NCBI GenBank assembly: GCA_030038195.1 | Contig: JASHPJ010000009.1 | Coordinates: 1 to 34,453 of the forward strand | Reading direction: 5' to 3' | From: Acidobacteriaceae bacterium | GTDB lineage: Bacteria; Acidobacteriota; Terriglobia; Terriglobales; Acidobacteriaceae | Length of the DNA: 34,453 nucleotides | Part shown: positions 1,873-28,996 of the stretch, piece after piece | Layout of the letters: the number at the start of each line of letters is the position of its first letter | How positions within the stretch are numbered: the stretch's first letter is position 1 | Translations under genes and position numbers: made by a program | The notes under the pieces: model-generated | Told to the model about the DNA's origin: nothing | Databases searched by the model: none | The model's input: the letters and a program-made list of their open reading frames with translations, nothing else

Positions 1873-3117
1873 TCACATGGTTGCGGGGATGAGCTCGAAG
1901 ACATGCGGCAGCGGCTGAGCGGATTTGCGCTGATCGTCAACGATCGCGCCGTCTTTTTCCTCAATGGCCTTGGTGGCACCCGCCGCGTCGGGGGTCTTGG
2001 GGTCTTCAATGGCGAGGATGAAGTTGGCCTGATCGAGCTGCGTGCGCTTGAGCTCGTCGCCGTCCACGCCGCGGGCCTGGCTGAGCATGGGAGTGGAGTA
2101 GAGCGCGAGGTTGACGCCAGCGGCGAGCTCTTCGCGCGTGAAGGTAGCGATGACGTGGCCGTCGATCTTGAGCGTGTAGCGCGGCGCGGACAGGTGATCG
2201 ACACCGAGCATCTGCTGATCCATTTGAGCCAGGTCAGAGATGCTGAGAACGAACTGGATCATGCCGTTGTTAAGGTCGAGCGGAAGCGGGAGCGCACCGT
2301 CGGTCTGCGTCCATTGGAGTGTACCGGCGTTGAGGGTGAGGCCGGAGACATGCGTGTTGACGGTGGCGACGGGGCTGGGCTGCTGTGCATCGAGATGCAC
2401 GCTGCTCACGATCGGCGATACGCCCCAGGTGCGCGCAAGCGCGGCGGCCATGACCCAGTGCGCGGCTTCAGAGGGATGAATGCGGTCGGGGACGAGGAGT
2501 GCGGCGAGCGACGGGTTCTTCTGCATGCCGGCGGTGGTGAGATCGGTGATGGACGTAAAAAAATCGCTGAAGCCGAAATGTGATGTTGCAGCCAAGTCCT
2601 TGACGGATGCGGCGTAATGGGCGATGACTTCGCCGTAGTGCGGAAATTCAGTGCCGTGGGTGAGCTCATCGTAGGGCGTGGGCGAGATGAGCGTGATTCT
2701 GGCAGCGGGCAGGGTGGTCTGGATGGAATTGAGCAGCGCGCGATAGCCGTTTTCGTAGATGTCGAGATATTTCTGGTTGAAAGGCATGTAATAGCCGTCG
2801 TTTATGCCGAGCATGATGGTGACCACGGTGGGCCGGCAGGGGAAGAGATCGCGCTTGAGGCGCGTGGACATGTCGCCGGTGTAGCCGCCGTTGACGGTGT
2901 CGCCGGGGACGCCGGCGTTGAAGAAGGCGATGCGCAGATGCGGATAGCGGGTGAGGAAGATGTCTTCAACGAAACGCGCGTAGTAGCGCTGCGCGGTGAT
3001 GCTGTCTCCGTAGAAGGCGACACGGTCGCCGTCGTGAAGCGCCAGTTGCTGAGCAGGCGCGAAGGCTGCGATTGCCAGAGAGAAGAAGAGCAGGAGATTT
3101 GAGCGGAGTGGTTTCAT
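1873..3117 (-). CDS. Exported SGNH/GDSL-family esterase
   Basis: This 414-residue protein starts with a signal peptide (MKPLRSNLLLFFSLAIAAFA, likely cleaved after Ala22). The four SGNH blocks are present: FYGDSIT with nucleophile Ser39, NAGVPGDT with Gly72, GIND with Asn106, and DRIHPS with Asp211 and His214. This fold hydrolyses esters, often acetyl groups on sugars, in the periplasm or outside the cell. Residues 230-414 form an extra C-terminal part I do not recognise, possibly a beta-rich carbohydrate-binding or packing domain. It is the last gene of the minus-strand cluster, 33 bases after the glycosidase stop, which suggests deacetylation of the same glycan. It is not a clear match to rhamnogalacturonan acetylesterase. 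Confidence 0.85.
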   Translation of the reverse strand: MKPLRSNLLLFFSLAIAAFAPAQQLALHDGDRVAFYGDSITAQRYYARFVEDIFLTRYPHLRIAFFNAGVPGDTVNGGYTGDMSTRLKRDLFPCRPTVVTIMLGINDGYYMPFNQKYLDIYENGYRALLNSIQTTLPAARITLISPTPYDELTHGTEFPHYGEVIAHYAASVKDLAATSHFGFSDFFTSITDLTTAGMQKNPSLAALLVPDRIHPSEAAHWVMAAALARTWGVSPIVSSVHLDAQQPSPVATVNTHVSGLTLNAGTLQWTQTDGALPLPLDLNNGMIQFVLSISDLAQMDQQMLGVDHLSAPRYTLKIDGHVIATFTREELAAGVNLALYSTPMLSQARGVDGDELKRTQLDQANFILAIEDPKTPDAAGATKAIEEKDGAIVDDQRKSAQPLPHVFELIPATM

Positions 3118-3150: not shown

Positions 3151-4950
3151 TCAGTACTCGACCAGGTAGGCTGTGCCTTTGAGGGTGACGGGGTCTTTTT
3201 CCGAAGAGTGGAAGCGGATGACGAGCGGGATGCCGGGCGTGAGGTCGCGCGTGTCGATTTCACCCAGGGCCCAGCTCATGCCGCTCCAGACGATCTTGTC
3301 GTAGTCGAGCTTGATGGGAATGTCGCGGCCGGCCTGCGTGGCGGAGAGCGCGAAGACCTTGGCCATGTTCGCGCCATTGGGAGGGCCGCCGGCCCAGGTG
3401 CGGCGCAGATGGCCGTCGGGCGTCATCTCCTGAAGGATGACGCGCAGCACGCCGTGCATGGGCGGGTTGACGGAGGCCTGCACGGAGCCAGGACCGGTGG
3501 ATTGAAACGCGATGGAGAAGGGCTCGATCGAGCGCGGGATGACGACGTCGTCCTGTATGCCGAAGTCATATTTGGGAGAGGCGTAAGCACCGTAGCCGAC
3601 CATGGCCATCTGGCCGGGGCCGAGCGTGACCTGGTTGCCGGTGAGTTGCGGCTGAAAACCGGCGTCGCGGAATTGAATGCGGCCAGGGCCGAGCGGCGGC
3701 TGGCTGGGGGCGAGCATGGGCAGCTTGATAGTCGCCACGTCTTGCGCAGGGTTGACGACGACATAGACTGCGCCGCGCGTGGTGACGCCGCCGAAGCCGT
3801 AGGACTGCGCGTCGCCGGGGATGCCACCGAAGGTGTGGATGCGGCCGAGGCCCTGCAACTCAAAGAAGAGCGATTGTGCGCGCGCCATCCATTGCACGTC
3901 TTTGCCCTGGATAAGCTCGAGGTTGCCGTGGATGGTGTTGACCCATCCGCCGCGGGCCATCATGAGCAGATAGGCGCCTTTCCAGGCGTGCATGGCGCGG
4001 TAGTAGATGGTGCCGGTTTTGCCCACCATGAAGCCGGTGGAGTCAATGCGCTCGAGCGGGAAGCCGAGCTGCTCGAAGCGGCGGACCATGTGGTCGCTGT
4101 AGATATCCATGGAGCGCCAGAAGCTGGACTCGGGCACGTCGGAAGGTCGCGGATCGCCGGTGTACTCCATCTGGAAGACTTCAAGCCAGCGCAGGTCAGT
4201 GGGATCGCTGAAGGGAAGCGGCGTGTAAGTGTTGTCGAGCGTGCCGCCGAAGCCGTTGAAGGCGAGAAGAACGGCGTCGGGATTTTTGTGGCGGAAGGCG
4301 CGTAGGGCTTCGCGGAATGCCGTGGCGTTGCGCTCGCGGATCTCGGCCTTGCTCATTTTGGCCGCGTCGGCGGGCGTGGCGGCAGTCATGTCGACAAAGT
4401 CGAACTTAAACATGCGGATGCCATGGTCGTACCAGAATTGCAGCGCGTTCATGAAGTCGGGGAGGAAGCCGCCTTCAAAGAACGACATGGCGGTGCCGTC
4501 GGTGTTGAGCGAGTCTTTCCACGCGGGCGCGGCCTGGATCTTGACGAGTGTGTTGGTGCTGAACCACAGGCCGGGAAGGACGCCGTTATCGCGACACTTT
4601 TTGATCCAGGCATCGGGGCCGTTGGGCCAGTTGGGCTTGCGCCACGTGCGGTAGCCGCCGTCGGGCGCGAACCAGAAGGCGTCCATCATGTAGTAGTCGA
4701 ATCGGACGCCGGCGTGCTTGAGGCGCAGAAGCTCGTCGAGCTCGCGCATGGCGAGAGCTTCGGTGAGCGGGATGTTATCGGAGAGCTCGTCGTAAGAAGA
4801 CCAGTTGTTGTAGACGGAGATGGGCGCAGCGAGCGCGGGCGGTGGCGGCTCGTCCTGCGCGGGCACTGAGCAGGCGGCGTAGAGCAGGACGAGGCAGATG
4901 GTGATGCGAGAGGCATGCGTGGCTCTTCCGACGCGCTGGAGCGGGTTCAT
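3151..4950 (-). CDS. Exported clan GH-D glycosidase (alpha-galactosidase-like)
   Basis: The start is taken at 4950, where ATGA overlaps the upstream stop and GGAGAG precedes it; an upstream ATG at 5055 would lie inside the neighbour. The product is 599 residues. A signal-like segment (residues 15-31, ITICLVLLYAACSVPAQ) precedes a TIM barrel (about 45-440). Motifs DYYMMDAFW (Asp90) and MFKFDFVD (Asp184) resemble the GH27/GH36/GH31-type nucleophile strand. The later SFWRSMDIYSDHMVRRF block is placed like the acid/base region of clan D. A C-terminal beta-sandwich (about 495-599) follows. It probably removes alpha-galactosyl or similar side groups outside the cytoplasm. I could not assign a numbered family; it may be a divergent branch. 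Confidence 0.75.
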   Translation of the reverse strand: MNPLQRVGRATHASRITICLVLLYAACSVPAQDEPPPPALAAPISVYNNWSSYDELSDNIPLTEALAMRELDELLRLKHAGVRFDYYMMDAFWFAPDGGYRTWRKPNWPNGPDAWIKKCRDNGVLPGLWFSTNTLVKIQAAPAWKDSLNTDGTAMSFFEGGFLPDFMNALQFWYDHGIRMFKFDFVDMTAATPADAAKMSKAEIRERNATAFREALRAFRHKNPDAVLLAFNGFGGTLDNTYTPLPFSDPTDLRWLEVFQMEYTGDPRPSDVPESSFWRSMDIYSDHMVRRFEQLGFPLERIDSTGFMVGKTGTIYYRAMHAWKGAYLLMMARGGWVNTIHGNLELIQGKDVQWMARAQSLFFELQGLGRIHTFGGIPGDAQSYGFGGVTTRGAVYVVVNPAQDVATIKLPMLAPSQPPLGPGRIQFRDAGFQPQLTGNQVTLGPGQMAMVGYGAYASPKYDFGIQDDVVIPRSIEPFSIAFQSTGPGSVQASVNPPMHGVLRVILQEMTPDGHLRRTWAGGPPNGANMAKVFALSATQAGRDIPIKLDYDKIVWSGMSWALGEIDTRDLTPGIPLVIRFHSSEKDPVTLKGTAYLVEY

Positions 4951-6785
4951 TCGCGGCTCTCCGTGGATATGGGTTGCATGTGGGAGTAATCGGGCGGCCC
5001 GAGATGGGCGCGCACTGCGCCGCCGAGCGTGGCGGCGTTCTGGAAGCCGCGCCAATCTGCGATGACACCGCCTTGCGGCGAGAGCAGGCGCAGGGCGCCG
5101 GTGGTTGCGTCTGCGGGCGCGGTTGCAAAGCGCAGCGCGCCGGGATAGACATCGTCGAGGTCGCCGATGGCGTTGGAGACGGCTGCACTCGTGGCGTCGC
5201 CCAGCAGGTAGACGGTGACCTTGAGACGGTCCGCGCCGTACTGGCCGGCAAGGCTGCGCAGCACGACGAGCTGAGCGCGCGGCTCGGGAGCGAGCAGGCC
5301 GTCCTGATCGAGAGCGGGGTTGATGGTTGCTTCGATTCGAAGAGACGCAGCGGCCGGTGCGGGGCGCGCGGGATCCTGTTGCGAGCTGCCGGTCTCGAAG
5401 CCTTTCGACTGCAGCGCTGCGAGCGTATCGTTCTGCTGGCCGGACACATCGAAGAGCGGCTGGCCGGCGAGAGTGTAGACGTTTTTCGAAGACGTCCAGG
5501 GCGCGGTGAGGCGATAGATGAGCGGCGAGGTCGAGGTGATGCGGTTTTCAGTGAAGACGGCGGGGGTGCCGTCGAAGTCGGCGTCATTGACGATGGCGGC
5601 TGCGCCGGGAATGCGCGGATTCCACTGGATGGTGTTGCGCGCGAAGGTGAGCCTGCGAATGACGCCGCCGTTCCAGGTGTGCATGTAGACTGCACCCTGC
5701 AGCGCGGCGAGGCGCGGGCTGAGCGCGTTAGCGATGCAGAGATTGTCGCGGACGGCGCTGTCGCTGGTGACGTAGCCGGCGGCGAAGACGGCGATGCAGT
5801 AGCCCTGCGTGTCATGCGCGTAGTTGCGCTGGACGATGTTGCGGGTGTTGTCCCAGTCGATGTCGTAAGCGCCGCCGTCGATGCCGGGAGTGTCTGTGAC
5901 ATAGGCTTCGTTGTCTTCGACAGTGCAGGTGTTGCAGGTCCAGGTCCAGATGGCGTTGGGCGTGCCGATGTCCTGCGTGGGCTGCATGCCGGTTTGCCAG
6001 GCGGCGCTGGCCTGGATTGCGCTGTCAGCGTCGCGAAAGAGGATGATGCCGTCGCCGTAAACGTCGTGCGCGGTGGAGTTGCGGATGACGACGTTGCGGT
6101 TGAGCGGGGCATTGGGCGGGTAAGGGAAGTTGCCGCCGCCGACGAGGATGCCGGACCACTGGTTGGTGTGGGCGGCGTCAACTCCGTCAACCAGGATGTT
6201 ATTGAAGACGACCGCGGGTCCGCTGGGGCCGACGACGACGAGACCATTGTCCTTGTTTTTCATTGCGCCGCCAAAGATATTGTGCACATAGAGGTTTTTG
6301 AGCGCGATGTAGCTCAGCGGGCCTTTGTCGCCGGTGACGAAGACGCCGTAGGTGTTGGCGCCGGAGAGATCGAGCGAGTCAATCTGCCAGTGTTGCTGGT
6401 TGGAGAAGAGCAGAACCTGGCGCGCGCCGGCCGGAGCGACGATGCGCGGGCGCAGTCCGCGGCCGTAGGCGGTGAGGCGAATGACGCGGCCTTCGCTGCC
6501 GGAGCCTTGTGGAGCGAAGCTGCCGTGACATACCGTGCCGCGCGCCAGCGCGATGCGGTCGCCAGGCGCGAAGGGATGCGCCTGGGCTACGGCAAGGGTG
6601 TTCCATGGGTGCGCTTCAGAACCATCGCCGGCAGCGGGCGCGGAGCAATCGATGAAATAGGAGTGCGGTTGTGTGGATGCGGCCTGGGCGTGTGTGGGAG
6701 CCGCGTAGTAGAGAGAGGCGAAGAAGATCAGAGATGCGATCCGGCCTGGAGCGAAAGAGCGAAGGCTGGACGCGAGGCGAAACAT
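4947..6785 (-). CDS. Exported right-handed parallel beta-helix protein (pectate-lyase-like fold)
   Basis: The start is set at 6785, where GGAGAT precedes an ATG and a signal peptide follows (FAPGRIASLIFFASLYYAAP, cleavage near AQA). The open frame continues upstream to 6959 but would run into the receptor gene. The 612-residue product has the SxGDGSEAHPWNTLAxAQ and FAPGDRIALARG opening typical of NosD/pectate-lyase-like beta helices. Repeated coils follow, rich in N and V (NNILVDGVDAAHTNQWSGIL, VIRNSTAHDVYGDGI, VEDNEAYVTD, VQRNYAHDTQGY, VRDNLCIA, FARNTIQWN) at about 120-400. A less repetitive C-terminal part follows. No specific lyase or hydrolase catalytic set could be picked out. The stop overlaps the next start by four bases (ATGA), which indicates translational coupling to the clan GH-D enzyme. 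Confidence 0.8.
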   Translation of the reverse strand: MFRLASSLRSFAPGRIASLIFFASLYYAAPTHAQAASTQPHSYFIDCSAPAAGDGSEAHPWNTLAVAQAHPFAPGDRIALARGTVCHGSFAPQGSGSEGRVIRLTAYGRGLRPRIVAPAGARQVLLFSNQQHWQIDSLDLSGANTYGVFVTGDKGPLSYIALKNLYVHNIFGGAMKNKDNGLVVVGPSGPAVVFNNILVDGVDAAHTNQWSGILVGGGNFPYPPNAPLNRNVVIRNSTAHDVYGDGIILFRDADSAIQASAAWQTGMQPTQDIGTPNAIWTWTCNTCTVEDNEAYVTDTPGIDGGAYDIDWDNTRNIVQRNYAHDTQGYCIAVFAAGYVTSDSAVRDNLCIANALSPRLAALQGAVYMHTWNGGVIRRLTFARNTIQWNPRIPGAAAIVNDADFDGTPAVFTENRITSTSPLIYRLTAPWTSSKNVYTLAGQPLFDVSGQQNDTLAALQSKGFETGSSQQDPARPAPAAASLRIEATINPALDQDGLLAPEPRAQLVVLRSLAGQYGADRLKVTVYLLGDATSAAVSNAIGDLDDVYPGALRFATAPADATTGALRLLSPQGGVIADWRGFQNAATLGGAVRAHLGPPDYSHMQPISTESRE

Positions 6786-6891
6786 CAGATTCAGATCTCC
6801 GGTGCGTGAGAAGGCGCGCGTGCGCACTGCAAGGCCGGCGCGAAGAGTCTTCGCGCCGGCGGGCGTATGCCAATTTTCGAGAAAGAGCCGG

Positions 6892-9800
6892 CTAAAAGTC
6901 CAGACGAATGGCGAACTGGCCCTGGCGCGGGTTGTCCTGAACGCCGAGAATCTCGCCAAATGTGGACGAATTGATGCCCGCGTGCGTGCCCCCGCAGCCC
7001 TCGATGTTGTAGTAGTGGCGATTGAGCAGGTTGTAGAAGTCGACGCGCAGAGAGACGACGTATTTTCCCTCTGGACCGACCCGGTTGTTCTTGAGGAATG
7101 TCGAATTCTCGTTGGCCTGGCCGGGGCAGCGCAGGCGCGAGTTGGTGGGCGAAGGCGGCAGCACGCCGGCGTCAGGATTGGACGCTACGCTGGTGGGCAT
7201 GTAAAAGTCTTGCGGCGGAGGCGTGGCACTGGACGCGACGGGGACATATTTTCTCGGGTTTGAGGGGCCTTTGTAATCGGTGACGTGGAAGATCGGATAG
7301 ATATCGCCCCAGAGCGGCCAGTAGGGATTGTTTGCGCCTACCATGAATGGCTGGCCAGTGTAGTAGCTGACGACACCGGCGACGGTCCATCCGTTCACGA
7401 GCGTGTTGACGACGGGACCCTGGGTAGCCAGCCAGCGGCGGCCATGGCCAAAGGGAAGCTCATAGCTTGTGAATCCTTTGACGACCTGCGGCAGATCGTA
7501 GCCGGTGAGCGCATGGGCCGCCTGGCGCATATTTTCGAAGTCCTGGACGCCGGTGTAGAAACCGTTGTCCTCGGCCTGCGCGGAGTAGGAGTCACCTTCC
7601 TGGCGGGACCAGTCGTAGCTCATGTCCATGGTGAGGCCGCGGCCGGCACGCTTGACAACATCGACGACCAGCGAGTCATAGAAGCTCTGGCCGAGCGGCA
7701 GGCCGGCGTATTGCAGGTTGGCGTAGTACCAGTAGGTGGCTTCGGCATTAGCCATTTGCGGCATGGGTGCAATGGCCGCCATCGCCGGGCCGTAGAAACC
7801 AGTGTAAGGGCACGGAGCGCCATAGGTAGCCGGAGATGGTCCGGCTACTGCCGAGCAATAGATGTAGTCGTTGTAGGGATTGATGGCCTGGTATCCGTTG
7901 GCGGCCGTGGCGGGGTTAGAGTCGACCAGATTCAGGAAGGTTGAGGTGCTGCTTTCATTCCATGCCAGCGCGGCGTCGGTAAGGCGATGGCCGCGATTGC
8001 CGACATAGGCGATCTCCAGTCTCATATTCGGCGTGAGCTGCTGCTGCACGCCGAAGTTGAAGGCCTCGCTGTATCCCAGGCGAAGCGAGCGGGGATCGAC
8101 GCTGACCGGAAACGGAGACATATAGGATGGGTCTGTGCTGGTGGTTGCCTTTGAAAACACGCCCGGATAATTGAACGCACCGCTTTGGGTGGTCCACGTG
8201 AAGTTGTTTGCGGCGTTCGAGCCGAGCTGAGGCGCAAATCCGTCGGGAACACCAGAGTAAAACGCAACGCCTACAGGGTTAAAGATCATGCCGTAGGAAG
8301 CGTGCACCACGACGTTGGGCAGGAACTGGTAAGCGATGCCGATCGATGGGCCGTAATTGTTGACGTACTCGTTCTTTTCGAAGCTATCGCCGCCGCCCTT
8401 AGCGAAGACCAGTGTGCCGGGAACGCCATAAATGGGACTGATGGCGGTCTGGTCGAAGTTGGCCCAGTTGCCGTATTTTTCATGGAACCGGGTGTTGTAA
8501 TTCCAGCGCAGGCCCAGATTCACGGTCAGCTTGGGAGTGACCTTGTAGCTGTCCTCTGCGAAGAGTTCGATGTTCTTCTGCCGGCCATAGAGATTGTAGG
8601 GCACGGATAGAGTGGCGCTGTTGACCAGGCCCAGCTCATAGGTAGCGAAGGCGAAGCCGTCATATCCGGTGCCATGGCAGCTCCATTGGCTGCCGCAGGA
8701 GGTGGGGTTGTAAGCAAATTTGAAGGAGTAGGCCCCGCTGCCCGAGCGGCTGTCGACCTCATGCGCGATGAACTGGCCGCCGAAGCTCATGTTGTGGCGG
8801 CCTTTGTTCCAGGTGACCGTGTCGCCGGTGGTGATGATGGCGCCGGAGGTATCGCCCTGCCAGGTGTTGCCGATGAAGGTTTCGCTTGTGCCCACATTGC
8901 CGTTGTCAGAGAAAGAGATCTCCGGGAACGTATTGGCTCCGGTGCTGCCGAATCCTGTCTGCGAGTTCCAGTCTGAAGGATCGGCGGGAGCGCTGCCGTT
9001 GTCGTCAAAAGCGTCAGTGAAGTTGACGACATTGAGAAGGTTCGGCGTGAAAGTATGCGTTTCGCTGAGGCGGTACTGCTGTTGCGTGTACTGCTGGATG
9101 CGCGCATTGGAGAGCGGGCCGCCGTTTTGTGTGCCTGCGGCCCACACGCCACCGCCATCGTCGAGCGTGCGTGGTTTGTGGTCGTAGATCCACGAGCCGG
9201 AGAGACGATCCTGCTCGCGCAGGACATGATCGAGCTTGACGACAAATTCGTTGGGGGTCTGGCTGGGCGTGTTGGAGAGGAGGGTTCTTTCGTTGGCGAC
9301 GAGGCCGCCGAGTTCAGGAGCGTAGCTCGAATAGAGCGTGTTGATTTTTTGAGCGAGGGGGCTGATCTGGCTTTGCGGAATGGTGTTGTTGGTGAACTGG
9401 TTGCCGGTAGCGGGGTCGTAGATCATGCCCACCTGGGCCTGCACGCTCTGGTTTGCGTCATTCATCACCATCAAAGGAGTGCCGGGCACACCGTTGTGAT
9501 TGGCTGCATTGCTACAGAGATCAGTGCCGCTGGTCCAGGTGCAGAGAGTTGCGCCGAGCAGGGCGCTGAAGTTGCCCTGCAGGAAATCCTGTGTGGGCAC
9601 GGTTGCGCCGCCGCCGTTGAGCCGGTAGTCGATGGACTGGAAGCGCTCGAATGTGCCGAAGAAGAAGGTCTTGTTCCTGTGAATGGGGCCGCCGAGGCTG
9701 AAGCCGTAGTCCCAGGCGCGCTCCTTGGGTTTTTCAATGTCTTCATTGTCGTTGGTCCAGGTGTTGGCATCGAGCAGCTCGTTGTGGCCGTAGAGGAAGG

Positions 9801-10569
9801 CTGATCCGTGGAGTGCGTTGGTGCCGGACTTGAGGTTGAAGGACATGACGCCGCCACCCGTAATGGCACTCTGAGCGTCGAGGCCGCTGGTCTGCGCCTG
9901 CACTTCTTCAACGGCCTCCATGCTGGGGCCGCCGTCCATCGAATCGCCGCGGATGTTGGAGGTGCCGGAGGTGCCGTCGATGGTGTAGTCCTTCACGAAC
10001 CACTGGCCTCCGTTGACGACGGCGCCGTAGGGTGAGCTGACCAGCGAGTAACCGGGGGTGATGGCGACGGCAAAGTCTTCCACGAACCGGCCGCCGCCAT
10101 AAATGCTGAGCGGCAACTGGTTAACAACATCGGCCTTCATGTTGGTGCCCACCGATGCCGTGTCCATGTCGAGAATGGGGGCATCGCTGGTGACGGTGAC
10201 GGATTCGCTGGCGGCGCCGACTTTGAGCACAGCGTCGATGCGGGCCACCTCAGTGGAGTTGAGCGTCATGCCCGATTGCACAAAGCTCTCGAATCCGGTC
10301 TTGACGAAATCAATGGAGTAGTGGCCGGGCGGAAGATTGGGGACGACATAGATTCCATCCCCGTTGGAGACGGACTTGGTGGGCACATTGGTGTCTGTGT
10401 TGGTCACGGTGACATCCACGCCAGCCACGACGGCGCCAGTCGAGTCAGTAACGGTGCCGGTGATGGTGGCGCGGTTGGCCTGTCCATAGGCAGTCCTTGT
10501 GGCAATGGCGGCCAGAACGGCGAGAAGTACGACGCCAAGCAGTCTGATCCTATATGTTGTGTGTTTCAT
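6892..10569 (-). CDS. Oar-type TonB-dependent outer-membrane receptor
   Basis: The start at 10569 is chosen because GGGAGG lies six bases upstream; an in-frame ATG at 10599 overlaps the previous gene. The product is 1225 residues. It has a signal peptide (VVLLAVLAAIATRTAYGQA) and then a carboxypeptidase-regulatory-like domain (about 25-110: TITGTVTDSTGAVVAGVDVT and LPPGHYSIDFVKTGF). A plug (about 115-260, including VNQLPLSIYGG and YTIDGTSGTSNIRGD) leads into a long 22-strand-type barrel ending in Phe (FAIRLDF). Such receptors take up large or bulky ligands across the outer membrane with TonB energy. No SusD-like lipoprotein is encoded beside it, as is usual in acidobacteria. It lies 26 bases after the propeller enzyme and 106 bases before the beta-helix gene, so it is probably the importer of the glycan the cluster processes. 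Confidence 0.9.
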   Translation of the reverse strand: MKHTTYRIRLLGVVLLAVLAAIATRTAYGQANRATITGTVTDSTGAVVAGVDVTVTNTDTNVPTKSVSNGDGIYVVPNLPPGHYSIDFVKTGFESFVQSGMTLNSTEVARIDAVLKVGAASESVTVTSDAPILDMDTASVGTNMKADVVNQLPLSIYGGGRFVEDFAVAITPGYSLVSSPYGAVVNGGQWFVKDYTIDGTSGTSNIRGDSMDGGPSMEAVEEVQAQTSGLDAQSAITGGGVMSFNLKSGTNALHGSAFLYGHNELLDANTWTNDNEDIEKPKERAWDYGFSLGGPIHRNKTFFFGTFERFQSIDYRLNGGGATVPTQDFLQGNFSALLGATLCTWTSGTDLCSNAANHNGVPGTPLMVMNDANQSVQAQVGMIYDPATGNQFTNNTIPQSQISPLAQKINTLYSSYAPELGGLVANERTLLSNTPSQTPNEFVVKLDHVLREQDRLSGSWIYDHKPRTLDDGGGVWAAGTQNGGPLSNARIQQYTQQQYRLSETHTFTPNLLNVVNFTDAFDDNGSAPADPSDWNSQTGFGSTGANTFPEISFSDNGNVGTSETFIGNTWQGDTSGAIITTGDTVTWNKGRHNMSFGGQFIAHEVDSRSGSGAYSFKFAYNPTSCGSQWSCHGTGYDGFAFATYELGLVNSATLSVPYNLYGRQKNIELFAEDSYKVTPKLTVNLGLRWNYNTRFHEKYGNWANFDQTAISPIYGVPGTLVFAKGGGDSFEKNEYVNNYGPSIGIAYQFLPNVVVHASYGMIFNPVGVAFYSGVPDGFAPQLGSNAANNFTWTTQSGAFNYPGVFSKATTSTDPSYMSPFPVSVDPRSLRLGYSEAFNFGVQQQLTPNMRLEIAYVGNRGHRLTDAALAWNESSTSTFLNLVDSNPATAANGYQAINPYNDYIYCSAVAGPSPATYGAPCPYTGFYGPAMAAIAPMPQMANAEATYWYYANLQYAGLPLGQSFYDSLVVDVVKRAGRGLTMDMSYDWSRQEGDSYSAQAEDNGFYTGVQDFENMRQAAHALTGYDLPQVVKGFTSYELPFGHGRRWLATQGPVVNTLVNGWTVAGVVSYYTGQPFMVGANNPYWPLWGDIYPIFHVTDYKGPSNPRKYVPVASSATPPPQDFYMPTSVASNPDAGVLPPSPTNSRLRCPGQANENSTFLKNNRVGPEGKYVVSLRVDFYNLLNRHYYNIEGCGGTHAGINSSTFGEILGVQDNPRQGQFAIRLDF

Positions 10570-10595
10570 AGAGCCTCCCCGTATGCTTCTTCGTG

Positions 10596-11714
10596 TCACT
10601 GATTGCCTCCGGAAGCTGTTTGGACAGCTTCCTGCAGTTTGACTTCCACTACGCCGATGGCGCCGGGAGTCGTGGTGATGCCGTTGGCGTCGGCGTGGGC
10701 GCCGGCGATCTTCTCGTTGGCGGAGTAGAAGAGCGTGAAAGATCCGCCGCCTTCGTCGATGAGGCCCAGCGGGGTGCGGACTTCGCTGGCCCAGATGCCG
10801 TTGCCGGATTGCACGGTCAGCCGCCGGCCGCGCGACCAGCGGATGCCATCACGCGAGAAGGAGTAGCCGACGGCGTTGGGCTCGTGGTTGTCATAGACCG
10901 CGACGTAGGTCCCATCGCCGAGCCGGGAGACGATGGGATTCTCGATGAAGCGCGGCTCCATCCTGAGCGGGTTCAGAGCGGAGCAGCGGGTCCACGGGCC
11001 GCCCAGCGCAGAAGCGCGCGCCAGGCCCACCTGCCAGAGCGAGATGGGCAGGCTTTCAGTCCGGGCGCTGCCGTAAAACGCGTACCACGCGCTGCCGACG
11101 GCGTATGGAAAAAAGGAGTCCGTGCCCTGCAGACCCTCCCACGCGCCGGAGTTTTTGTTCCGCTCAAGGATGATGCCTACATCCTTATAAGGACCGCCGA
11201 TGCCGTCGATTCCAGGCGTGGCGGAGACGGCGCGCCAGATGCGGCCTTCGTGGTTGGTGAGCCACTGCCGCGATGTGTCCGGGGCAGCCTGGTAGGCCAC
11301 GTAGAACAGGTTCCAGCGGCTTTCCCGAGGGTCGAAGACCGGCATGGGCGACCACAGGGCGGCACGCGGATCCCTCCCGGTGAAGTCGCCGCTCGATTCG
11401 CGGAGCGTGCCGATGCGCCGCCAATGGGCGCGGTCGCGGCTTGTCCAATGTGCGAGCTTCATTTTTACCCAGTGCGGGTCGCCGACCATCTCCGAGGTAA
11501 AGAGATGATAGACACCGTTGAGTTTGATTATCCTGCCGCCTTCGAACCCGTATTTGTTGCCTTCCGCGCCGGCCGAGCGCGTAGTGAGCACCGGGCCGTC
11601 GAACTGCCGGGTCACCACAAGCTCGCGGTCAGCGGCCATGAGGAAGACTGCAGAGGCGGCAAGCGACAGAATCGCCAGCCGGTTGAGTGATTTCGAAACG
11701 GACTGCAGCCTCAT
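10596..11714 (-). CDS. Exported five-bladed beta-propeller glycosidase (GH43/GH32-like fold)
   Basis: The start at 11714 has AGGAG five bases upstream; another in-frame ATG lies at 11732. The 372-residue product begins with a signal peptide (LNRLAILSLAASAVFLMAAD). Propeller blades are visible as repeated W/Y-rich strands: FEGGRIIKLNGVYHLFTSE, MKLAHWTSRDRAHWRRIG, DPRESRWNLFYVAYQ, SAWYAFYGSAR, DGTYVAVYDNHEPNAVGYSF and GSFTLFYSANEKI. This is the pattern of five-bladed propeller hydrolases, families GH43, GH62, GH32 and relatives. Catalytic carboxylates cannot be assigned with confidence, so it may also be a non-catalytic or unclassified member. It is the first gene of the minus-strand cluster, so the operon promoter should lie in 11715-12251. 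Confidence 0.7.
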   Translation of the reverse strand: MRLQSVSKSLNRLAILSLAASAVFLMAADRELVVTRQFDGPVLTTRSAGAEGNKYGFEGGRIIKLNGVYHLFTSEMVGDPHWVKMKLAHWTSRDRAHWRRIGTLRESSGDFTGRDPRAALWSPMPVFDPRESRWNLFYVAYQAAPDTSRQWLTNHEGRIWRAVSATPGIDGIGGPYKDVGIILERNKNSGAWEGLQGTDSFFPYAVGSAWYAFYGSARTESLPISLWQVGLARASALGGPWTRCSALNPLRMEPRFIENPIVSRLGDGTYVAVYDNHEPNAVGYSFSRDGIRWSRGRRLTVQSGNGIWASEVRTPLGLIDEGGGSFTLFYSANEKIAGAHADANGITTTPGAIGVVEVKLQEAVQTASGGNQ

Positions 11715-12077
11715 CGATCTCCTGGAACGCATTCATGCCGGCAGCAGGACGGCATGAGTCCACAACGCCGCCGGAAACGGACTTGAACCCGGCGCAAGAA
11801 CCTGATTTTTCAGGCGATTCCGTTGTAGGCGCTCGTAATCACCCTCTTCAAGGTAATGAAGGTTATGCGCCACGTTAACCAAGTTGCAGAGAGGCAATTC
11901 GGAATGGAGAGCACCGGAACTGGACTGAAGCAGCCCGATTTTTGAGGCCCCGCGTGCAGGCCGCCGCACAGATTGCATGGAGCCGGTCTCAAACCGTCGA
12001 CGAACGATGGTGCACAGCCCAGATTCGGAGGCGAACCGGCTTTTGCAGCAGAAATTACTTGCTTTGCGCCGAAGTTC

Positions 12078-12111
12078 AATAACCGGTATTAACGGCGCAA
12101 ATAACCGTTAT
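12078..12111. promoter_or_regulatory. Tandem operator-like repeat AATAACCGnTAT
   Basis: AATAACCGGTAT (12078-12089) and AATAACCGTTAT (12100-12111) are direct repeats whose starts are 22 bp apart, about two helical turns. TAACGG (12090-12095) and CCGTTA (12105-12110) form an inverted repeat in the same block. The position, about 140 bases upstream of the membrane regulator and 365 upstream of the glycan operon, suits a binding site for a regulator controlling one or both. The regulator's identity is inferred, not shown. Confidence 0.45.
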
Positions 12112-12152
12112 CCAAGCGCAGAGGCGAAATTTAAGATACGGAGCACCTGTGC

Positions 12153-12182
12153 TTGACAGGCTGTTGATGTGGGAATTACGGT
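12153..12182 (+). promoter_or_regulatory. Possible sigma-70 promoter of the membrane regulator gene
   Basis: TTGACA at 12153-12158 is a perfect -35 box. TACGGT at 12177-12182, 18 bases further on, keeps the first two and last bases of TATAAT. The gene starts 70 bases downstream. The weak -10 suggests either activator dependence or that this is not the real promoter. Confidence 0.35.
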
Positions 12183-12251
12183 GATTGGGTCTGGAGAAGG
12201 CGTCAGCCGCTCCGCAGTACGCTGCCGCGCTGCGCTTCCTGAGCCGGGAGC

Positions 12252-13577
12252 ATGGTCTTGGTGTCTCGACACAATCCGGTAGACGGCTTTTCTCTCTATG
12301 AAAAGCGCGAGGAGCTTCGCCGGGTCATCCAGAGCAGGCACTTTGCCAACTCGCCCAAGAAGACCCGGTTTCTGGAGTTCATTGCCGAGCAGACCTTCCA
12401 GGGCAACAGCGAAAAACTCAACGAATACCTGATTGGTACGGAGGTCTACGAGCGTGGTGCCGACTTCGATCAGCAGAAAGATCCGATTGTCCGCGTGCAA
12501 GCGCACGAGATTCGCCGGCTGCTGAAAAAGTACTACGAGGAAGAGGGCGCCGACGGCGTCATACGGATGGATCTTCCTCCCGGTCATTATGTGCCCGTGT
12601 TCAGCCGCATCGAGCCGGGAGAAACGGCTGAGGCTGTGCCTCCTGCGCCGCAGGCTGCGACTGCATCCAGAGGGATCAACCGCGTCCACCTTGTGCTTAC
12701 GGTTGCGCTGGCGGCAGCCTGCGTGGTGCTGGCTGTGCTGCTGGCGCGGCGCGGAGGGCAGGACACGAATGCGGCGCAGGCGCGGCATGTGGCCGCGACG
12801 CTTCCGGTGAACCTGGACTGGTTCTGGCATCCGTTTCTGCCGCCGGCGGGGGCGCCGCTGATCGTGATTCCCAACCATCCGCTGCTGCGCGCGGCTCATG
12901 GCGGCGACAGCGCGCAGACCTGGGCCAGCGGGCACGACATTCCCAAGGCCAGCCTGCCAGAGTTTCGCGACACGATCCACTTCAGGGAGCTGAAGCGGTT
13001 TGTTTTCGTGCCTTCGCTGACGGATTTTACTTCAGTAGGAGAGACAGTTGGACTCGTCGATCTGTGCGAGATGTTTTTCCATGTCGGCGATACGTGCCTG
13101 GTGCGGCAATCGCGGCTGCTGAACTTCGAGGAGATCAAGAGCAACAACGTGATCCTGCTGGGCGGCAATCAGTCGTGGAGCGGGCGCGTCTTTCTCAACG
13201 TGGAGGGCTTTCACTTTCAGGATGGCGTGATCATCAACCGCAGTCCGCAGCCGGGCGAAAAGCCGATCTACAAACCCGAGTTCGATCCGGTGACGAATGA
13301 GCTTACCCGCGATTATGCGCTGGTGCTGATGCTGCCCAATGAGAGAAAAGAGAACCGGGTGCTGTTGATCTACGGCATCTACACGCAGGGATCGCAGGCG
13401 GCGATCGAGTTTGTTACCAGCCAGGAGAAGATGGTGCAACTGCGCACGGCGCTGGCTGCGCTGTCGCCGGACCACAAGACCGTTCCGCCGTACTTCCAGG
13501 TTCTGCTCACGACGACGGTAGAGAATGCCGTGCCCGGCGACACGTCGATTGTAGCGGTGAGGAAGGTTGCGGACTGA
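12252..13577 (+). CDS. Single-pass membrane protein with HTH-like cytoplasmic domain; candidate membrane-bound transcription regulator
   Basis: The 441-residue protein has three parts. Residues 15-120 form a basic domain with blocks LRRVIQSRHFANSPKKTRFLEF, LNEYLIGTEVYERGADFD, DPIVRVQAHEIRRLLKKYY and IRMDLPPGHYVPVF. I recall this module at the N-terminus of many acidobacterial proteins; its last block (LPPGxYVPxF) ends like a winged-helix wing. Residues 145-165 form one transmembrane helix (VHLVLTVALAAACVVLAVLL) followed by RR. Residues 170-441 would be periplasmic, with a block (PLIVIPNHPLL to VILLGGNQSW) I do not recognise as an enzyme. The plan resembles CadC-type one-component regulators. 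Divergent placement next to the glycan operon suggests it senses a periplasmic product and controls that operon. Function is inferred. A GGGAG sequence sits just upstream of the ATG. Confidence 0.65.
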   Translation: MVLVSRHNPVDGFSLYEKREELRRVIQSRHFANSPKKTRFLEFIAEQTFQGNSEKLNEYLIGTEVYERGADFDQQKDPIVRVQAHEIRRLLKKYYEEEGADGVIRMDLPPGHYVPVFSRIEPGETAEAVPPAPQAATASRGINRVHLVLTVALAAACVVLAVLLARRGGQDTNAAQARHVAATLPVNLDWFWHPFLPPAGAPLIVIPNHPLLRAAHGGDSAQTWASGHDIPKASLPEFRDTIHFRELKRFVFVPSLTDFTSVGETVGLVDLCEMFFHVGDTCLVRQSRLLNFEEIKSNNVILLGGNQSWSGRVFLNVEGFHFQDGVIINRSPQPGEKPIYKPEFDPVTNELTRDYALVLMLPNERKENRVLLIYGIYTQGSQAAIEFVTSQEKMVQLRTALAALSPDHKTVPPYFQVLLTTTVENAVPGDTSIVAVRKVAD

Positions 13578-13855: not shown

Positions 13856-15388
13856 ATGACGGCCTTGCAGCTGGAAGCACTCTCCAACGGCTTGATGGAA
13901 TATTGCCTGAAGCCGTGCGCGGTGGCTGCCTGCTTTGTGCTGGTTGCGCTGCTGTGGACCTTTCCGCTGCAGCACGTGATTGCGTATCCGTTCGTGTTCC
14001 TGTTTTTTGGCGCGATCATGGGCAGCGCGTGGTTTGGCGGCGTGATTGCCGGATGCATGGCGGTTGCGCTCTCCACGGTCATCATTACCTACTTCTTCAT
14101 TCCTCCATTTTTCTCGATGTCGGTGGCGAAGGATTCGCAGAGCTTTTTGACCGCGTTCTTTGTGTGCGCTATTGCGATTTCGGTGGTGAGCTCGGCGCGG
14201 AAGCGGAGCGAGAATGCGATCCGGAGCGCGCGGGATCTGCTGGAAGTGAAGGTGCGGGAGCGCACCGCGGAACTGGTGCAGTCGAACCTGGAGATCAAAG
14301 AGAGCGAGCGGCAGTTGCGGCTGCTGACGGAGGCAATTCCGCAGCAGATCTGGCGCGCCGATGCGGCAGGGTGTATTGAATATTGCAACCAGCATCTCAT
14401 CGAGTATCTGGGCAGGCCGATGGAGGAGCTGCGCGGCGAAGGATTTTTCAGCGTTCTGCATCCTGAAGATGAGCCGCTGTTCCGGCGCGGCTGGCAGGCG
14501 GCGCTCGAGTCGGACGGTAACTTTGAAGTGGAGGCGCGGGTGCGTGGCGCAGACGCTGCGTACCGCTGGTTCCTGGTGCGCAGCCTACCACAGTATTCCG
14601 AGAAGGCGGAGATTGTGCGCTGGTACGGCATCCATATCGATATCGAGGAGCAGCGGCGCGCGCAGCAGGGCCTGACGGCGACGCAGGAAAAGCTCTCGCA
14701 ACTGTCGCGCACGCTGGGCATGGCGGAGATGGCGGCGTCGATTGCGCATGAGCTGAACCAGCCGCTGACGGCGGTGGTGACGCATGCATACGCGTGCCGT
14801 GAGTGGCTGCATGCAGAGCCGGCGAATCTGGACAAGGCGTCGGCCACAGCGGAAAAGATCGTGCAGGAGAGCACGCGGGCCAGCGCGGTGGTGAAGCGGG
14901 TGCGGGCGCTGTTCCGCAAGGATGAGCAGGTGAGGGAGCCGACGGACATCAACTGGCTGATTTACGAGCTGGTGAGGCTGCTGCGCGATGAGGCGATTCG
15001 GCGCGAGGTCCTGATCCGGCTGGCGCTCGCGGAGAATCTTCCGCGGCTGGCGGTGGACCCGGTGCAGATCCAGCAGGTAATGCTGAACCTGGCTACGAAC
15101 GGCATGGATGCGATGATGCAGTTGGAGGGGCCGCGCGAGCTGACGATCCGCACGAAACAACACAGCGACAACGAGGTGCTGGTAACGGTGGAGGATCGCG
15201 GGCCGGGCATGAGCGAGGGGATTGCAGGCAAGATCTTCGAGCCGTTTTTCAGCACCAAGCCGCAGGGCACAGGCCTGGGACTGGCTATCTGCCGTAGCAT
15301 TGTGGAGGCGCACGACGGCAGGCTCTGGGTCAGCAGGGCGGAGCACGGCGGCGCAGTGTTTCAATTTACGGTGAGGGCCCAGTCATGA
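13856..15388 (+). CDS. PAS-domain sensor histidine kinase (FixL-like), membrane-anchored
   Basis: The 510-residue protein begins with three to four hydrophobic helices (about 20-110) arranged like the DUF4118 module of KdpD-type kinases. The PITY-like YFFIPPFFSM follows the third helix. A short coiled region precedes a PAS domain (about 155-265: WRADAAGCIEYCNQHLIEYL and HPEDEPLFRRGW). The HisKA domain carries His298 in IAHELNQPL, and the ATPase has the N-box NLATNGMDAM, DRGPGM, FEPFFSTK and GTGLGLAI. The HELNQPL-type phosphoacceptor belongs to the FixL/DctB group. No haem-PAS signature could be verified, so the signal is unknown. The stop overlaps the response regulator start by four bases (ATGA), making them a coupled pair. 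Confidence 0.9.
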   Translation: MTALQLEALSNGLMEYCLKPCAVAACFVLVALLWTFPLQHVIAYPFVFLFFGAIMGSAWFGGVIAGCMAVALSTVIITYFFIPPFFSMSVAKDSQSFLTAFFVCAIAISVVSSARKRSENAIRSARDLLEVKVRERTAELVQSNLEIKESERQLRLLTEAIPQQIWRADAAGCIEYCNQHLIEYLGRPMEELRGEGFFSVLHPEDEPLFRRGWQAALESDGNFEVEARVRGADAAYRWFLVRSLPQYSEKAEIVRWYGIHIDIEEQRRAQQGLTATQEKLSQLSRTLGMAEMAASIAHELNQPLTAVVTHAYACREWLHAEPANLDKASATAEKIVQESTRASAVVKRVRALFRKDEQVREPTDINWLIYELVRLLRDEAIRREVLIRLALAENLPRLAVDPVQIQQVMLNLATNGMDAMMQLEGPRELTIRTKQHSDNEVLVTVEDRGPGMSEGIAGKIFEPFFSTKPQGTGLGLAICRSIVEAHDGRLWVSRAEHGGAVFQFTVRAQS

Positions 15389-16023
15389 CAGCAGCGCGCG
15401 AGAAGGTGTTCATTGTCGATGACGATCCCTCGATCTGCGAAGGGCTTGAGAACCTGCTGGAGTCAGTGGGCATCGCGGCGGAGCACTTTCCTTCGGCGGA
15501 GGCTTTTCGCGCGTGCTGGGACAGGGCGAAAGCGGGCTGCCTTCTGCTGGATGCGCGGCTGCCGGGAATCAGCGGCGTGGAGCTGCAGGAGGAGATACGC
15601 AAGGCGGGGTTGGGGCTTCCCATCATCTTTATGACGGCGCACGGCGACGTGCCGATGGTGCGCAAGGTGATGAAGGCGGGTGCAGTCGAGTTCCTGACCA
15701 AGCCGTTTCAAAAGGAGGAGCTGATTCACGCGGTTGAGCAGGCGTTTGATTACGATCGCGCGCGCAGACGGGAGGCCGAAGAACTGGATTCTATTCTGGC
15801 GCGCCTGGAGTCGCTCAGCGAGCGCGAGCGCGAGGTGATGGGGCTGGTGACGGCGGGGTTGCTGAACAAGCAGATTGCCGCGGACCTGGAAGTGAGCGAG
15901 ATTACGGTGAAGCTACATCGGCGGAAGGTGATGGAGAAGATGCGGGCGAACTCGCTGGCGGAACTGGTGAAGATGTGCGAGCGGGTGAAGGCATCGCCGC
16001 GCCTGCGTCCGGGCCGGTCTTGA
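15385..16023 (+). CDS. FixJ/LuxR-type response regulator
   Basis: The 212-residue protein has a receiver domain (8-120) with acidic VDDDPS, phosphoacceptor Asp56 in LLLDARLPG, the switch Thr in FMTAHGD and Lys in LTKPF. A LuxR/GerE HTH follows (about 145-205: LSEREREVMGLVTAGLLNKQIAADLEVSEITVKLHRRKVMEKM). It is the expected DNA-binding partner of the kinase encoded immediately upstream with an ATGA overlap. The VKLHRRKVMEKM recognition helix is typical of the FixJ/TodT/StyR subgroup. The nearest genes it could control are the minus-strand 184-residue protein or distant targets; no FixJ-like operator was recognised here. Confidence 0.92.
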   Translation: MTAAREKVFIVDDDPSICEGLENLLESVGIAAEHFPSAEAFRACWDRAKAGCLLLDARLPGISGVELQEEIRKAGLGLPIIFMTAHGDVPMVRKVMKAGAVEFLTKPFQKEELIHAVEQAFDYDRARRREAEELDSILARLESLSEREREVMGLVTAGLLNKQIAADLEVSEITVKLHRRKVMEKMRANSLAELVKMCERVKASPRLRPGRS

Positions 16024-27876: not shown

Positions 27877-28085
27877 CCTGTTTAAAGACTCTTCAGAGCA
27901 AGGCAAGAGCCTTGAAAGGGTACGGCTTCAGCCGTGCTATAATACGTGTTGGATCAACTTCTCTTTTTCACCCTCCGCTTCGCCGGCCGGCGAAGCAGAG
28001 GGTGAAGTATCCATCAAAATCACGCTTTTTGGTACGGTTGAAGCCGTGCTCTTTCAAAACATCAAGCTTTTAGACAGGTTCTCAG
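27877..28085. repeat. Compound palindromic element of family B around a 40-bp near-perfect palindrome
   Basis: The right arm (28031-28085: GGTACGGTTGAAGCCGTGCT, CTTTCAAAACATCAAGCTTT, TAGACAGGTTCT) is repeated inverted and degenerate on the left (27877-27938: GAGCCTGTTTAAAGAC, CTTGAAAGGGTACGGCTTCA, GCCGTGCT). Between them, 27967-28006 is a 40-base palindrome with one mismatch (TTCACCCTCCGCTTCGCCGG and its complement). The right end reaches the stop codon of the AraC gene at 28082. No gene is seen. It could act as a bidirectional terminator for the AraC gene. Confidence 0.75.
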
Positions 28086-28996
28086 GGAACTTTGCAGTAT
28101 TGCTGGGGCGAACAACCCACGCAGGTTTTGAAGCAGCGTGAAAAGTAGTACTCGTTCTCAAAGCCAAGATCGCGTGCGATGGCTTTCACTTTCATGGAAG
28201 TGGACTGCAGCAGGAAACATGCTTTCTTGATTTTGAGGTGCATGAAATATTTCATTGGCGGCATGCCGGTGATGGTGCGGAAGCGCCGCGAGAAGTGAAA
28301 GCGCGAAAGGCCCAGATAATCCGAGAAGTCATCGAGGCGCATCTTCTTGTCGACCGAGTGTTCCATGAAGCCGATCACGGTCTGAATCTCGCGCTCCCAT
28401 TGCGGACTGGCACTGGACGGCCGCTGGGCCATCGCCATGGCCGCCAGGATGTGCTGCGCGCAGGCATAGATCGCGGCCAGGTGCGTCTCGTCATTGATCG
28501 GCGTGTAGAGATCGTAGAGCGAGCGAAAAAGCTCGACGATGTCAAGGTGCATGCCAAGCTTGACGATGGGGGCGGTGTGCGTAAAGCCAATCAGCTTGCG
28601 GTAAAGCGCCATGCGCGACCCTGAGACATGCATCCAGTGGATGGTCCACGGGTCCTTTTCGTCGGACTTGTAGATGTGATGAGTCTTCGGCGCGCAGTAA
28701 AGCAGGTCGCCGGGCAGGACCGTCCACGTAGTGTTCCGCTGCGAATACTCGCCTTTGCCGGCCACGCAATAAATCAGGATGCCTTCGTCGAGGCTTTTAC
28801 GCTCTACGGCGTGGCCGTGCGCTCTCTTGAAGTAGCCCACCTGAAAGACCGTGAGGTCGGTGAAGAGATCGGGTTGCATCCAGCGCCGGCGGTCTTCGAG
28901 CGAGAGGAAGTGAAAGATAGCTTCTTCAAAGGTTTTTGTTTCTTCTTCGAATCGCACTGCCCTGGGATCAAAGGGGAGCTTCGTTTTTGCGCTCAT
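28082..28996 (-). CDS. AraC-family transcription regulator
   Basis: The 304-residue protein has an N-terminal cupin-type sensor (about 45-130: DEGILIYCVAGKGEYSQRN and LPGDLLYCAPKTHHIYKSDE). A C-terminal pair of HTHs follows (about 205-300: LDDFSDYLGLSRFHFSRRFR, PPMKYFMHLKIKKACFLL and IARDLGFENEYYFSRCFK). This is the sugar-responsive AraC/RhaR type. It is divergent from the second TonB-dependent receptor with 405 bases between starts, and probably controls it and perhaps itself. GGAG lies ten bases upstream of the ATG. Its stop codon lies inside the end of a palindromic repeat element. Confidence 0.92.
   Translation of the reverse strand: MSAKTKLPFDPRAVRFEEETKTFEEAIFHFLSLEDRRRWMQPDLFTDLTVFQVGYFKRAHGHAVERKSLDEGILIYCVAGKGEYSQRNTTWTVLPGDLLYCAPKTHHIYKSDEKDPWTIHWMHVSGSRMALYRKLIGFTHTAPIVKLGMHLDIVELFRSLYDLYTPINDETHLAAIYACAQHILAAMAMAQRPSSASPQWEREIQTVIGFMEHSVDKKMRLDDFSDYLGLSRFHFSRRFRTITGMPPMKYFMHLKIKKACFLLQSTSMKVKAIARDLGFENEYYFSRCFKTCVGCSPQQYCKVP

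Follow-up and report, generated by a model that had tools for sequence, protein, structure and literature searches.

We consider it likely, from sequence, genomic association and two conserved sites, that the gene at 12252–13577 of the window (the whole stretch of DNA analysed, 34,453 nucleotides) encodes a transmembrane one-component activator for the adjacent TonB-receptor operon. The gene is most likely that of a one-piece inner-membrane sensor of a soil acidobacterium, which switches on the neighbouring uptake genes. Its family, a large set of acidobacterial paralogues, has no Pfam or NCBIfam assignment and is largely unnamed.

Layout of the candidate regulator and its locus

12252–13577, + strand: candidate transmembrane one-component regulator, 441 aa; intact open reading frame, with orthologs
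12294–12611, + strand: N-terminal domain (aa ~15–120), probably a remote OmpR/CadC-type winged helix
within 12294–12611, + strand: putative recognition helix DPIVRVQAHEIRRLLKKYY and putative wing IRMDLPPGHYVPVF
12690–12746, + strand: single transmembrane helix (aa ~147–165), hydropathy 2.97
12792–13568, + strand: C-terminal sensor domain of type 'CT', probably periplasmic; no Pfam family
10596–11732, − strand: glycosidase-like protein, GH43/GH32/GH130-like (weak; Pfam GH43 E 8.8e-6), first gene of the divergent operon
6892–10599, − strand: TonB-dependent receptor with a CarboxypepD_reg domain (OMP_b-brl_4; Pfam E 1.2e-141)
4947–6959, − strand: right-handed beta-helix protein (Pfam Beta_helix E 7.5e-9)
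3151–5055, − strand: 634-aa protein of no recognised family; Pfam gave nothing for it up to E 1
1873–3117, − strand: GDSL esterase (Pfam Lipase_GDSL_2 E 8.4e-20)

The product runs from an N-terminal domain (aa ~15–120) through a membrane helix to a C-terminal domain of ~260 aa, and its orthologs, at 67–79% identity, lie on 9 other acidobacterial contigs. Two genomes of the same genus hold further close relatives (78% and 69%) among the matches listed. Pfam and NCBIfam scans assigned no part of the 441 residues, and sequence searches of the PDB with the whole protein and with its full profile returned nothing usable; Calpain_III matches in Pfam (E 0.033–0.041) were set aside as chance. The initial annotation had described a single transmembrane helix, a C-terminal domain of no recognised type and a gene divergent from the leftward cluster, and all three descriptions are borne out. 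The hydropathy scan found one strong segment (aa ~147–165) and no second segment above the threshold, and a low-confidence AlphaFold2 model puts the membrane helix at aa 144–167; the C-terminal domain has no Pfam or NCBIfam match, and the gene order confirms the divergence. One hydrophobic segment is also the rule among the family members scanned (75 of the 76 proteins with the N-terminal domain), being present in 65, with none in seven and two in three. The lysines and arginines that flank the helix number 2 on the N-terminal side and 3 on the C-terminal side (family means 3.0 and 2.2); for this protein the charge rule is neutral and does not favour an N-inside orientation. Translation may start at TTG 12258 or GTG 12261 rather than at ATG 12252, because the upstream alignment of the orthologs has no ATG there and a GGGAG shortly upstream is better spaced for the TTG or GTG.

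For the C-terminal domain, 38 homologous CT domains submitted to Pfam gave scattered weak matches only, and no PDB entry matched it up to E 10. An S_layer_C match (E 0.043) in one of the 38 was left unused as an identity. Among the orthologs, C272 is invariant and C282 nearly so; judging from the sequence, the two cysteines would suit an oxidising compartment, and the domain is probably a periplasmic sensor.

The GH43 match of the first leftward gene scores 25.7 bits, below the Pfam cut-off, and 8 of the 11 ortholog loci have a GH43-like gene of 65–76% identity next to the regulator. The beta-helix protein has PDB relatives over aa ~95–176 (7v6m, 4.9e-11; lacto-N-biosidase 6kqs, 2.3e-9), and relatives of the 634-aa protein (58–92%) were found in 4 of the 11 loci (L012, L013, L018 and L155). 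Together, the GH43-like protein, TonB receptor, beta-helix protein and GDSL esterase may point to a plant-type polysaccharide as the substrate. In loci L012 (2692–6150) and L013 (2692–6186), the TonB receptor is only 24–26% identical to that of the window (6892–10599), with the GH43-like, beta-helix and 634-aa genes kept at 61–92% identity, a pattern that looks like exchange of the receptor inside an otherwise conserved operon. Two other arrangements in the window were recorded: a PAS histidine kinase and a LuxR-type response regulator lie directly downstream of the regulator (13856–16023), and a second TonB receptor (29402–32863) is divergent from an AraC-type regulator (28082–28996), a conventional pairing.

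Operator-like sites between the divergent genes

11850–11880, no strand: operator-like site A, made up of three direct repeats of GTAA/GTTA and adjoining the inferred leftward promoter; from ortholog conservation
12080–12110, no strand: operator-like site B, with direct repeats of TAAC at 0/10/22 and a TAACnGTTA, in the opposite orientation to A; from ortholog conservation
11823–11851, − strand: inferred promoter of the leftward operon, TTGAAG (11851–11846), 17 nt, CTACAA (11828–11823)
12153–12182, + strand: inferred promoter of the regulator, TTGACA (12153–12158), 18 nt, TACGGT (12177–12182)

When the DNA upstream of the regulator was aligned between the window and nine orthologs, two conserved islands stood out from otherwise poorly conserved sequence, with the consensus AGGTAAwnnnGGTTATn6-7GTTA for site A and TAACnGnnnTTAACn7-8TAACnGTTA for site B, the latter with single departures in L014, L016, L018 and L155. 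Repeat operators had been proposed between the two genes, with 12060–12190 as the region bound; the repeats are real and conserved and site B falls inside that interval, but site A is outside it. Of the 11 ortholog loci in which this region is available, the window included, 10 have both sites, and both are missing from L019. Locus L020 starts at residue 176, at a contig edge, and stands outside all N-domain and operator counts. At L019 (7875–9071), the regulator lacks its first 82 residues and lies in a different neighbourhood, and the joint loss may reflect one rearrangement or a misassembly.

In the window, sites A and B have GGTTAT-N7-GTTAA in common, in opposite orientations, so that each site faces its own gene alike. 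The exact pattern GGTTATN7GTTAA occurs twice in the 4.17-Mb genome (11861–11878 and 12089–12106), both times within this 519-bp intergenic region, compared with one match of the reversed control pattern in the whole genome; with one mismatch allowed, there are still 2 in the window, where 0.05 are expected. The spacer of the site A core is 7 nt in four of the orthologous sequences and 6 nt in six. Within the fetched DNA (2.76 Mb with overlaps counted), the A and B patterns are confined to these loci except for one site A match, in L094. Both sites are retained in L012 and L013, where the receptor has only the 24–26% identity given above, and in L016, where the GH43-like gene was not found. Their persistence despite a changed receptor or GH43-like gene suggests that the sites follow the regulator. 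Inspection by eye of 24 other divergent intergenic regions disclosed no operator shared across the family.

A consensus promoter scan found neither the leftward promoter nor that of the regulator, both of which were read by eye. In ten sequences anchored on site A, the leftward promoter keeps TTGAA in 6 and TANAA in 8, and all ten aligned regulator upstream regions have TTGAC. Site B lies 42 nt before TTGACA in the window and closer to it in some orthologs.

The domain layout read from the sequence, the family, its genomic association and the conserved sites are established, and they can be assembled into a model for which we infer the fold, the topology, the ligand, DNA binding and activation over repression. 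A cytoplasmic OmpR/CadC-like winged helix (aa ~15–120) would be tethered through the one membrane helix to the periplasmic C-terminal domain, on which a breakdown product of the glycan used by the adjacent operon, or an occupied envelope partner, would act. On this signal, the regulator, held in the membrane as a dimer, would switch to another oligomeric state, and its winged helices, as a pair, would bind the GTTA repeats of site A, which adjoins the inferred leftward −35, and thereby activate the uptake genes. The same winged helices would bind site B upstream of the regulator gene and so adjust the level of the protein itself.

The position of site A beside the inferred −35 would also fit the blocking of polymerase, and divergent autoregulated gene pairs are often under repressor control. 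The regulator could accordingly be a repressor that holds site A without ligand and is released on ligand binding, a reading that we regard as unlikely. We favour activation, since the repeats are placed upstream of a −35 that is weak (TTGAAG), as with activators that touch polymerase, and since the nearest working models, CadC (PMC5430869) and SusR (PMC3878776), activate in the available text of those papers.

There is a still smaller chance that a different regulator occupies sites A and B and that the membrane protein acts in another way, for example as a sensor partner of a sigma/anti-sigma or two-component system. The kinase and LuxR-type response regulator that follow at 13856–16023 would suit such a role, and DNA binding by the membrane protein is putative. 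However, tblastn (E 1e-10) found this pair in none of the 11 ortholog loci, where A and B are kept apart from L019 and from L020, whose contig stops short of the region; nor does the regulator have a sigma or anti-sigma Pfam match.

The N-terminal domain and the family it defines

Activation by the membrane protein itself presupposes that its N-terminal domain binds DNA. The initial annotation had called this domain basic and winged-helix-like. It is not basic, since aa 15–120 contain 18 K/R and 18 D/E (pI 7.05); the likeness to a winged helix stands only as a remote similarity at the level of the family, and the regulator's own domain had no Trans_reg_C match in the Pfam scan. Trans_reg_C is the commonest Pfam match among the 66 N-terminal domains of the family, found in 5 of them at E up to 5. 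The best of these matches (E 0.0011) comes from another member than the window protein, and E-values of this kind went elsewhere with 19–20 bits, the cut-off being 26.2 bits. Scored with an HMM of ten Trans_reg_C domains from the same genome, the 66 domains had a higher mean than each of 300 column permutations; the real count above 2 bits was attained by 0 of the 300 and the modal register by 1, and the single highest score was equalled by 4. This control superseded decoys made from independently shuffled sequences, for which the shared register had been 44/66 in real domains vs 12/1085 in decoys with any match, a test that was unfair because the 66 domains are homologous. In the Trans_reg_C alignment of the family, DPIVRV..RKRL falls onto the recognition helix and the GxYVPxF end onto the wing; the regulator's own domain falls out of register with it.

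Other searches with the domain were negative. A comparison by hhalign with the ten Trans_reg_C domains of the same genome gave Prob 0.1 and E 0.71, searches of the PDB with N-domain profiles returned nothing below E 0.4, and scans of viral contigs, run to widen the alignment, contained no relative of the regulator. A TetR protein (E 0.41) and a cystatin (E 0.9) from the PDB profile search were attributed to chance. AlphaFold2 models, built from alignments of 10 and 8 close sequences only, reached pLDDT 37.1 and 46.6, and the first of them, at this low confidence, has the helix-helix-helix-hairpin order expected for a winged helix. We retain the reading as a winged helix despite the negative hhalign result because of the Pfam match counts and the column permutations; the evidence is suggestive, and by sequence the domain is probably a remote winged helix of the OmpR/CadC type. 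That it is instead a protein–protein module, and that the envelope sensors of this family accompany receptors for some other reason, seems quite improbable: the regulator's domain has no significant family match, hhalign was negative and the models are of low pLDDT, but Trans_reg_C leads the Pfam matches of the family, no permutation attains the mean score, and conserved sites A and B lie beside the regulator gene.

A profile search located seven copies of the N-terminal domain in the regulator's own genome. Among the matches listed, 45 of 60 relatives match the regulator and one genome has at least 24; the domain was found in 17 of 149 genomes drawn across the phylum. Within the taxonomic family to which the window belongs, 12 of 15 genomes listed have it, with a maximum of at least 19 copies. 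Plasmids with a match account for 276 records, over 200 of them rhizobial (Sinorhizobium, Rhizobium and others), and the site was unannotated or 'hypothetical' in the 20 of these 276 matches that were shown; one plasmid member (L172) has 321 aa and no Pfam match. We fetched 58 of ~150 listed loci, drawn from 13 genomes with long contigs, together with the members from the regulator's own genome and three others. By local HMMs built from family members themselves, the C-termini of 76 proteins with the N-terminal domain in these loci were typed as CT in 48 (37 plus the 11 orthologs), malectin-like in 17 and other in 11. Pfam recognised malectin in 8 of 21 members scanned, and in ten other-type members it found GH16 (2), PD40 propellers (2), TPR (4, with TolB_N in 2) or nothing (2). 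Such varied fusions, mostly with one hydrophobic segment, form the pattern of one-component sensors.

We then related the family members to TonB receptors, which were detected with an HMM of the local receptor type run on the stretches around the members; distances are between stop-to-stop frames and concern the nearest receptor only. The orthologs by N-terminal domain, the window included, all have a TonB receptor within 5 kb (11/11), 10 of them divergent from it. Among the remaining CT-type members, a receptor lies no more than 5 kb away for 28 of 37, leaving 9 with none at that distance, compared with 7 of 40 control stretches at round-number positions in nine of the genomes (Fisher p 3e-7); 23 of the 28 are divergent from the receptor, and 21 of these 23 lie within 1 kb of it. 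A second set from two later genomes, counted without two off-centre rows that duplicate members counted elsewhere, gave 16 of 17 CT-type members (8 divergent) vs 6 of 20 controls chosen likewise (p 1e-4). The tie of the regulator to TonB-receptor loci, already proposed from the window, is thus confirmed for CT-type members in two controlled sets. Malectin-type members show no such tie (3/17 within 5 kb), and the other types reached 5/11 in the first set and 1/2 in the second.

The regulator's own genome, with ~45 TonB-receptor frames (merged by hand from 58 matched stretches), has 5 of its 7 family members within 5 kb of a receptor, 4 of them divergent. Neighbours of the paralogues include GH16, GH31, an IlvD/Edd-type dehydratase, a sulfatase and an MFS transporter, and also proteins, a VWA protein among them, with no evident part in glycan use. 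A GH16-type paralogue (L152:1855–3660, C79) has a TonB receptor and a stand-alone GH16 gene as neighbours, so that sensor and enzyme of one family stand side by side. In Granulicella tundricola, two members are annotated as 'hypothetical protein'; a TonB receptor and a GH1 beta-glucosidase are divergent from WP_013572899.1, and a GH16 gene from WP_013572754.1.

Relation to known systems and significance

Transmembrane transcription regulators are an established class, of which a 2023 survey counted 50,302 by means of Pfam DNA-binding models, with raised numbers in Acidobacteriae, according to the part of the report available (PMC10269533). Since the regulator's own N-terminal domain has no Pfam DNA-binding match and the matches of its family are weak, a survey of this design, as far as the available text describes it, would probably miss most of the family.

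Like the regulators of the CadC/ToxR type, the window protein has an N-terminal DNA-binding domain (here putative), one membrane helix and a C-terminal sensor domain (here a candidate), and its N-domain family is remotely similar to the OmpR-type winged helix. It differs from them in lacking a Pfam DNA-binding match, in a C-terminal domain of another kind and in a family that often lies beside TonB receptors. CadC is an activator with short T/A-rich half-sites, as in the regulator's locus; its consensus is TTAxxxxT and its sites are arranged head-to-head in the text available (PMC5430869), whereas here the half-site is GTTA and mainly direct repeats are found. The Bacteroides protein SusR is comparable in its task: in the accessible part of the source (PMC3878776), this membrane protein has its sensor in the periplasm and its DNA-binding domain in the cytoplasm, and it activates the sus operon. 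It would share with our candidate the control of a TonB-receptor glycan operon by a membrane one-component regulator and direct-repeat sites. In contrast, the DNA-binding domain of SusR is C-terminal, after an N-terminal periplasmic sensor, which reverses the order seen here; SusR is also described there as unique to Bacteroidetes, with predicted tandem sites 67 or 77 bp apart. The Bacteroides HTCS, in the same partial source (PMC3878776), resemble the family as lineage-expanded, locus-dedicated sensors of glycan loci, but their histidine kinase, receiver and AraC-type domains are absent from the regulator (Pfam, E up to 1).

In the open-licence PMC literature, as far as its text was accessible, we recognised no description of the regulator family and found none of the control of TonB-receptor loci in acidobacteria. 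The initial suggestion that this control mode is little described in acidobacteria is therefore not contradicted by that literature; as a mode of control, it has a precedent in SusR (PMC3878776, available text).

On balance, we lean towards regarding the proteins as an uncatalogued, lineage-expanded regulator family that is the acidobacterial counterpart of SusR and HTCS of Bacteroides, in which a diverged winged helix is combined with interchangeable envelope sensors, some of them re-used glycan domains (GH16, malectin), and many members are dedicated to a TonB-receptor or glycan locus of their own. If this is true, the family members would represent testable regulator–locus pairs, and those of the GH16 and malectin types would hint at the class of ligand from the sequence. 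The family would also add a new DNA-binding domain to Pfam-type catalogues and would increase the number of membrane-tethered regulators known in the acidobacterial lineage.
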